A stretch of 64,000 bases of DNA from Candidatus Fermentibacteraceae bacterium (lineage in GTDB: Bacteria; Fermentibacterota; Fermentibacteria; Fermentibacterales; JCC-6), in NCBI GenBank assembly GCA_027067855.1, contig JAMOUX010000026.1, positions 142,473 through 206,472 on the forward strand, given 5' to 3'. The notes under the pieces are model-generated. The model was not told the DNA's origin. It did not search any database and worked only from the letters and a program-made list of their open reading frames with translations. Positions 1,181 to 34,612 of the stretch are shown in pieces. Made by a program: the position numbers and the translations under genes. Every line of letters starts with the position of its first letter. Position 1 is the first letter of the stretch.

Positions 1181-1637
1181 TATCGAAAAGGTGGACGAGA
1201 TTATCGACAAGTGGGGCTGCGATCCCGACTTCGTCATAGAAATGTTTCAGGACGTCCAGGATCATTTCAGGTACATTCCCAGGAAAGCTTTGGAAAGAAT
1301 TGCGGACAGGACGGGCAAACCCAGGGGAAAACTCTTTCATATCGTCACCTTTTACAAGGCCTTCAGCCTGGAACCCAGGGGCGAGAAGGAGATCCAGGTC
1401 TGCATGGGAACGGCCTGCTACGTCAGGGGAGCCCCGGACGTGCTTGCGGCCATGGAGAGGGAGTTGGGAATCAAAAGCGGGAAGACCACCGCGGATGGTA
1501 AGTTTACCCTTTCGGAAGTGAGGTGCCTGGGTGCTTGCGGAATGGCTCCGGTGGTAACGGTGGACGGTCGGGTCTATGGAAGGGTCGGATCGTCCGACAT
1601 ACCGGGAATCATCAGGGAGATGAGGAGGCCGCAATGA
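1173..1637 (+). CDS. NuoE/HydC-like [2Fe-2S] thioredoxin-fold subunit
   Basis: 154 residues from GTG 1173, chosen because AAGGAGGT (1158-1165) sits 7-8 bases upstream; an in-frame TTG at 1155 lies before the ribosome-binding site. It has the 24-kDa-subunit fold of complex I. The four Cys of a [2Fe-2S] cluster occur as C-x4-C in CMGTAC and C-x3-C in CLGAC about 35 residues later. The family passes electrons between a flavoprotein (NuoF/HydB) and partner Fe-S clusters. It overlaps the AOR N-domain gene by 8 bases and the NuoF-like gene by 4 (ATGA), so translation is probably coupled. In this context it belongs to an NAD(P)-linked AOR complex rather than to complex I, since no membrane Nuo subunit is present. 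Confidence 0.93.
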   Translation: MIDIEKVDEIIDKWGCDPDFVIEMFQDVQDHFRYIPRKALERIADRTGKPRGKLFHIVTFYKAFSLEPRGEKEIQVCMGTACYVRGAPDVLAAMERELGIKSGKTTADGKFTLSEVRCLGACGMAPVVTVDGRVYGRVGSSDIPGIIREMRRPQ

Positions 1638-33273: not shown

Positions 33274-33328
33274 GATGGCCGGGAACTTTCCCATTGACGG
33301 AGTACCGGTTCCCCTGTAGTATAAGATT

Positions 33329-33384
33329 ACGTGGAGTGATTTGAGGCGTATTGCAACCACGTTAAAAAAAGTGCTAAAAAGCCG
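33329..33384 (+). ncRNA. SAM-II riboswitch
   Basis: The aptamer matches the SAM-II consensus closely. The P1 strands are ACGTGG (33329-33334) and CCACGT (33357-33362). The conserved TGATTTG and TTGCAA lie in the P1 loop, TTAAA follows P1, and GCTAAA lies at 33373-33378. The pseudoknot pairs GGC (33345-33347) with GCC (33381-33383), a compensated change from the CC/GG of the structurally solved marine SAM-II sequence. It sits 74 bases before metK, a standard SAM-II target, and would lower metK expression when S-adenosylmethionine is plentiful. Confidence 0.95.
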
Positions 33385-33398
33385 ATAGCCCGCCTCAG

Positions 33399-33422
33399 GC
33401 CGCCGGCAGGCGGCTTTTCTTT
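33399..33422 (+). terminator. intrinsic terminator in metK leader
   Basis: GCCGCC-GGCA-GGCGGC hairpin followed by TTTTCTTT, starting 15 bases after the SAM-II aptamer. TTGAGGCG (33341-33348), which contains the pseudoknot strand, is complementary to CGCCTCAG (33391-33398) directly before the hairpin. That offers a ligand-free alternative pairing, so control is probably transcriptional. Confidence 0.8.
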
Positions 33423-33457
33423 ATTCGGCCGGTTTTTTTCAGGAAGGTTAAGACATT

Positions 33458-34612
33458 ATGACGATGTTCACAAGCGAATCGGTATCGGAGGGTCACCCCG
33501 ACAAGATATGCGACCAGATATCGGACGCCGTGCTCGACGCCCACCTGAAACAGGACCCGGATGCACACGTGGCGTGCGAGACCCTGGTTACCACCAACTT
33601 CTGCCTCCTCGCGGGGGAAGTGAACAGCAAGGCGGAAGTGGACTATGTCCAGGTGGCGAAAGATACCATAGAGTCCATCGGCTATGACGTTCACGACCTG
33701 GGGTTCCACTTCAGGGAGAATACCTACAGAATAAAGATACATTCCCAGTCGCCGGACATAGACCACGGCGTGGTCGAAAACCGGGGAGCCGGAGATCAAG
33801 GACTGATGTTCGGATTCGCGTGCAACGAGACCGATGTGCTGATGCCGTACCCGATACAGCTGGCGCACCGGTTGCTCGAGAAGCTCAGGGAATCGCGAAA
33901 AGCCGGTGAGCTTCCTTGGGCCAGGCCCGACGCCAAGAGTCAGGTTACGGTGGAGTACGACGGTTACGTGCCGGTGGCGATAAACGAGATATTGCTCTCC
34001 GTTCATCATGCACCGGATGCCGACAGCGTTTTCATGATGGAGGAAATAAGGAAAAAGGTCGTGGAACCGGTAGTACGGGACTGCAGGCCGGTCCTGGAAT
34101 GGAACGGCGACTTTCTTTTCAATCCTTCCGGAAGATTCGCGATAGGAGGACCCCACGGTGACACCGGGCTCACCGGGAGAAAGATAATAGTCGATTCGTA
34201 CGGCGGAACCGGGAGGCATGGAGGCGGCGCCTTTTCCGGCAAGGACTGCACCAAGGTGGATCGTTCCGCGGCTTACATGGCCAGGCACATAGCGAAGAAC
34301 CTCGTGAAGGCCGGCGTAGCGGACAGGTGCGAGATTCAGCTCGCGTACGCCATCGGTCGGCCCGATCCGGTGTCCGTCATGGTGGAAACCTTTGGGACCG
34401 GTAAGGTGAAGGATGAAACCAGGATAGAACAGGTGATCCGGGCTCTTTTCCCTCTTAGCCCCTACCGTATAATAGAATACTTGGGCCTCAGGAACCCCAT
34501 TTTTTCGAAGACATCTTCATTCGGGCATTTCGGAAGGATTCCCGGGGATGATGGATCCTTCTCGTGGGAGAGGGTTCACAGGGCTGATGAGATAGCTTCC
34601 ATGCTCCTCTGA
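33458..34612 (+). CDS. metK: S-adenosylmethionine synthetase
   Basis: 384 residues, the normal bacterial length. Motifs are SEGHPDKICDQISDA near the N-terminus, GAGDQGLMFGFA (substrate loop), GGPHGDTGLTGRKII and GGGAFSGKDCTKVDRS. It makes SAM from methionine and ATP as a tetramer. ATG 33458 has AGGAAGG upstream. Its leader carries a SAM-II riboswitch and terminator, giving product feedback. The next genes follow closely (22 bases) and may be affected by the same switch. Confidence 0.99.
   Translation: MTMFTSESVSEGHPDKICDQISDAVLDAHLKQDPDAHVACETLVTTNFCLLAGEVNSKAEVDYVQVAKDTIESIGYDVHDLGFHFRENTYRIKIHSQSPDIDHGVVENRGAGDQGLMFGFACNETDVLMPYPIQLAHRLLEKLRESRKAGELPWARPDAKSQVTVEYDGYVPVAINEILLSVHHAPDADSVFMMEEIRKKVVEPVVRDCRPVLEWNGDFLFNPSGRFAIGGPHGDTGLTGRKIIVDSYGGTGRHGGGAFSGKDCTKVDRSAAYMARHIAKNLVKAGVADRCEIQLAYAIGRPDPVSVMVETFGTGKVKDETRIEQVIRALFPLSPYRIIEYLGLRNPIFSKTSSFGHFGRIPGDDGSFSWERVHRADEIASMLL

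Follow-up and report, generated by a model that had tools for sequence, protein, structure and literature searches.

Does the DNA upstream of metK in this window (the whole stretch analysed, 64,000 nucleotides) encode a SAM-II riboswitch, and by what route would such an element control the gene? The reading that we favour, at a probability of roughly 70%, is a single-copy SAM-II element at the 5' end of the metK mRNA that would act as an OFF switch through transcription termination. The whole window was compared with Rfam 15 using cmscan, and only two models, both SAM-II and both at the same place, exceeded their gathering thresholds: RF01726 (46.3 bits, E = 1.1e-5) and RF00521 (33321–33397; 37.7 bits, E = 6.3e-5). 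The second of these is the Infernal check that the original prediction had proposed. The gathering cut-offs are 44 bits for RF01726 and 36 bits for RF00521, so that the window scores about 2 bits above each; the doubt left by this narrow margin is removed by homologues in 35 genomes (see below). SAM-V was absent from the Rfam 15 matches in the window, and no second RF00521 match was found in the 1.86 Mb genome (98.9% complete) to which it belongs. With both Rfam models over their cut-offs and the hallmark motifs and parts present (Table 1), the class named in the original prediction stands. By every available sequence test the element is a SAM-II riboswitch, and its RNA is a putative binder of SAM. 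The kind of element is already known, and its conserved compact layout adjoins a terminator.

Table 1. Features of the metK leader region, in window coordinates
Feature	Position	Strand	Basis or remark
Probable sigma-70-type promoter TTGACG-17-TAGTAT	33294..33322	+	9/12 consensus matches
SAM-II aptamer, whole RF01726 match	33325..33387	+	46.3 bits; RF00521 37.7 bits
P1 5' strand ACGUGG	33329..33334	+	Pairs with 33357-33362
Conserved loop strand GAUUUGA, L1 region	33338..33344	+	RF00521 alignment; AUUU invariant in 32 homologues
Anti-P2 helix 5' strand	33340..33348	+	Occupies P2a 5' strand and some of the conserved U run
Pseudoknot P2a 5' strand GGC	33345..33347	+	Pairs with 33381-33383
Core AUUGCAA	33350..33356	+	UAUUGCA invariant in 32 homologues
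P1 3' strand CCACGU	33357..33362	+	Pairs with 33329-33334
Core GCUAAAA	33373..33379	+	CUAAAA invariant in 32 homologues
Pseudoknot P2a 3' strand GCC	33381..33383	+	Pairs with 33345-33347
Anti-P2 helix 3' strand, linker CGCCUCAGG	33391..33399	+	Flush with the terminator
Intrinsic-type terminator GCCGCC-GGCA-GGCGGC-UUUUCUUU	33399..33422	+	Hairpin -12.5 kcal/mol; pattern scan
Probable metK Shine-Dalgarno AGGAAGG	33441..33447	+	Sequence; 10 nt before ATG 33458
metK, S-adenosylmethionine synthetase	33458..34612	+	TIGR01034 513 bits, cut-off 309; start ATG 33458

The aptamer consists of a single stem (P1) with five conserved pairs and a loop of ~20 nt, and an H-type pseudoknot (P2a) closed by three pairs. 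All of the core motifs GAUUU, UUGCA and GCUAAA are present, and the GAUUUGA strand would be the ligand-binding triplex strand by homology to SAM-II. Covariation was assessed in an alignment of 32 homologues (A1). The P1 pair at alignment columns 4/35 is CG in 17 homologues, UA in ten and UG in four, and the outermost pair (A33329–U33362) shows no conservation. The pseudoknot is paired in 94.8% of alignment cells over the 32 homologues, compared with 26–54% in slid controls; its third pair is UG in 17 sequences, CG in eight and UA in two, and its second changes from GC to AU in one genome (G036). Such compensatory changes bear out the covarying GGC/GCC pseudoknot of the original prediction. The number of pseudoknot pairs with double changes in the 32 homologues is no higher than in shuffles, and the covariation score for the two helices together is matched by one shuffle in 500, with few independent events behind it. 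On these alignments we regard the covariation evidence for the pseudoknot as real, but as coming from few independent events. The same G036 sequence carries a GTCGGAT at the pseudoknot 3' strand that pairs with an ATCCGAC ~45 nt downstream.

The target proposed for the element, metK, is confirmed by the gene that follows it, a TIGR01034 metK whose start lies 70 nt beyond the end of the RF01726 match, and the same gene follows in 35 of 35 genomes. These come from a sample of 42 genomes of the phylum, which covers one order, nine genera and three families; exactly one SAM-II match occurs in each of the 35, and all nine genera and all three families are represented. RF00521 detects the element in genomes from the same genus, family and order, and RF01726 detects more. 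The MetK motif GHPDK lies in frame downstream of the aptamer in all 32 extracted regions, and in the remaining three genomes the aptamer is likewise directly upstream of metK. Seven genomes gave no match: four lack any metK match (G008, G010, G011 and G013) and three have only metK fragments that lack the 5' end (G007, G014 and G041). Thus, none of the 42 genomes has an intact metK start without the riboswitch.

Since each genome with the element has a single copy, invariably at metK, and these genomes span all nine genera and three families, inheritance within the phylum is apparently vertical, and the element is probably ancestral to the phylum and has been kept at one gene. The suggestion that its presence here shows transfer fares badly against this pattern; horizontal transfer was rejected for this phylum, and no sign of recent transfer was seen among the 42 genomes. 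Outside the phylum, seven of 343 sampled prokaryote genomes match SAM-II, and a 67-bit SAM-II element in G374 (L138), also outside the phylum, lies upstream of a TIGR01034 metK. At a locus from another family (L140, ~1340–1570, minus strand), two SAM-II-like elements stand in tandem ~100 nt apart, with a terminator-like hairpin behind the first. Our literature search, which included SAM-II together with Fermentibacter, found no paper on SAM-II in the phylum of the window, and we make no claim to a first report.

The -10 box of the promoter-like pair in the window ends 6 nt upstream of P1, which makes P1 the probable start of the transcript. This agrees with the published observation that SAM-II RNAs usually begin a few nucleotides upstream of P1 (PMC1273637). 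Near-consensus promoters, with the -10 box mostly 5–9 nt upstream of P1, are present in most of the 32 homologues, and the pair is weak in some (e.g. G037). On the other side of the aptamer, the terminator is built from GCCGCC (33399–33404), a GGCA loop and GGCGGC (33409–33414), followed by TTTTCTTTATT. Such a GC-rich hairpin with a T tract lies 3' of the aptamer in 33 of the 35 homologues. Its stem changes from CG to UA in 12 sequences and reads CCGCCC...GGGCGG in G038 and G039; long T tracts are a conserved feature. The two exceptions (G020, L124, and G036, L125) have no T tract but keep the aptamer, and control may have shifted to translation in them.

Two further observations concern the DNA just beyond the first terminator. 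The sequence TCGGC (33425–33429), which follows the T tract, complements the pseudoknot 3' strand together with two nucleotides (GCCGA, 33381–33385) and is found at 14 of 14 loci of the genus to which the window belongs and one sister genus (the window, L118, L112, L114, L103, L113, L117, L111, L110, L116, L122, L107, L108 and L106). As it would be present in read-through RNA only, it might keep such RNA from the aptamer fold. A second T run (T7) after CGGCCGG, within 33426–33440 and just 3' of the first terminator, was seen in none of the relatives.

Between aptamer and terminator lies the linker, which can form an alternative helix (anti-P2) with the loop strand. Pairing of 33341–33348 with 33391–33398 beside a terminator had been predicted, and it is both present and conserved. 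In the window it comprises seven Watson–Crick pairs (33342–33348/33391–33397) and two U–G pairs (33341/33398 and 33340/33399), nine in all, with a duplex energy of -13.8 kcal/mol that is equalled by 1% of shuffled linkers. The CCUC of the linker, which is conserved just before the hairpin, pairs with GAGG or GGGG of the pseudoknot 5' strand. Anti-P2 is paired in 94.2% of alignment cells, with compensatory change at two pairs. For anti-P2 and the terminator together, 91.6% of cells are paired (88.9% in shuffles), and five pairs show double changes in 16 cells (2.2 pairs and 5.9 cells in shuffles). Among the 33 homologues with a terminator, the gap between the feet of the two helices always lies between -1 and 3 nt (median 0).

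Anti-P2 draws on the pseudoknot strand and some of the U run and is therefore incompatible with the bound aptamer. In contrast, anti-P2 and the terminator are both part of the predicted minimum-energy structure of the window (nested folding). We therefore regard anti-P2 as an anti-aptamer helix and not as a classical antiterminator, since it is flush with the terminator, scarcely overlaps it and is predicted to coexist with it; the latter role was rejected on the overlap of at most 1–2 nt. The proposal of terminator control of metK is thus upheld in part: the terminator is present and the control plausible, but the alternative helix is not predicted to compete with the hairpin in the manner of an antiterminator. 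Nested folding of the growing transcript predicts that anti-P2 displaces P1 once 33396–33400 have emerged, when the terminator still lacks ~15 nt. Several homologues, most clearly G023 and G032, have a predicted ligand-free fold in which the pseudoknot 3' strand GCCG(UC) pairs with the 3' arm of the terminator, and this predicted pairing is a classical antiterminator. The corresponding pairing in the window amounts to 4 bp and is absent from its predicted folding.

These pairings suggest the following course of events. Transcription would start at P1, which folds. With SAM present, the pseudoknot (33345–33347/33381–33383) would close before the linker (33391–33399) is synthesized; the linker would remain free, the terminator hairpin (33399–33414) would fold and transcription would end in the U tract upstream of metK. 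In the absence of SAM, nine pairs would join the loop strand (33340–33348) to the linker and the aptamer fold would be lost; a rigid helix would then abut the base of the terminator, with read-through by more polymerases as the expected result. That a flush helix weakens termination in this way is something that we infer. Tentatively, and at less than even odds, anti-P2 at the foot of the terminator might serve as a platform whose control is steric or kinetic, exerted at the exit channel of the polymerase, and does not depend on stealing an arm of the hairpin.

As the pairings in the window alone do not give the direction of the switch, this rests on the gene, the majority of the homologues that respond in folding and the literature, all of which point to SAM lowering metK. 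To mimic the SAM-bound state, folding was repeated with the aptamer and P2 strands blocked. The predicted terminator probability then rose in 18 homologues, was unchanged in 11 and fell in four, counted without regard to kinship. The window is one of these four: its value fell from 0.92 to 0.43 at the end of the tract, as the linker, once freed, can pair with 33409–33413, a pairing that is not conserved. Most of the SAM-II elements in the literature are associated with terminators, and they have been proposed to be OFF switches (PMC1273637, PMC2258182, PMC6061858), and in Sinorhizobium meliloti metZ terminated RNA rises with SAM (PMC9373788).

The strongest competitor of transcriptional control, although we consider it unlikely, is control at the level of translation or at both levels, in which SAM frees the CCUC linker to mask the metK Shine-Dalgarno sequence and the terminator has only a partial effect. 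A CCUC linker complementary to the Shine-Dalgarno sequence is present in most homologues and many of the resulting duplexes reach -6 to -11 kcal/mol; the two homologues without a T tract retain the aptamer, a translational SAM-II is known (metX; PMC6061858) and a mixed case has been reported (PMC9373788). However, the duplex in the window amounts to -4.6 kcal/mol (p = 0.47), which is not above shuffled linkers, and in G012 and G018 the linker is CCCCUAAA, which keeps its pairing with the loop (UUUGGGG) and has only slight pairing with the Shine-Dalgarno sequence. The length and conservation of the T tracts also argue against this alternative. Masking by the linker was accordingly set aside as the main mechanism, being weak in the window.

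Far less probable is the opposite direction, in which SAM would turn metK ON through pairing of the freed linker with the 3' arm of the terminator, thereby preventing termination. This direction is what simple folding predicts for the window taken by itself, but it is shared by four of 33 homologues against 18 with the opposite response, and it would set up positive feedback, with SAM promoting production of its own synthetase. We know of no SAM-II ON switch. That the aptamer is a chance look-alike, or a decayed form that no longer binds SAM, is hardly credible even with scores so close to the cut-offs, given core motifs that are invariant across three families, compensatory changes in P1, pseudoknot and terminator, and the same location in 35 genomes.

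The element adds a phylum-wide SAM-II set for which metK is the sole target found; its ~35 natural sequences each accommodate a promoter, the aptamer, the anti-P2 helix and a terminator within ~130 nt. Reports of SAM-II come from Alphaproteobacteria, from a small number of other proteobacteria and from the Bacteroides group (PMC1273637, PMC2258182). RF01726 (SAM-II long loops), the best-scoring model here, describes a form reported from Bacteroidetes and marine sequences (PMC2864571). The core motifs are common to both, and the RF01726-type element of G374 likewise precedes a TIGR01034 metK; the window differs in its short P1 loop, its GGC/GCC pseudoknot and its phylum. With RF00521 (SAM_alpha; PMC1273637) it shares P1 and the pseudoknot, a promoter a few nucleotides before P1 and a terminator after P2. 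SAM_alpha targets in Proteobacteria are metY, metA, hom, metX, metC and metW (PMC4239095), whereas the only target found in the phylum of the window is metK, a less usual target of SAM-II, yet not a unique one (G374). SAM-V and SAM-II share their H-type pseudoknot and their ligand site, but SAM-V acts on translation with the Shine-Dalgarno sequence hidden in P2a (PMC6061858), whereas the pseudoknot strand in the window lies 75 nt upstream of the start codon with a terminator behind it.
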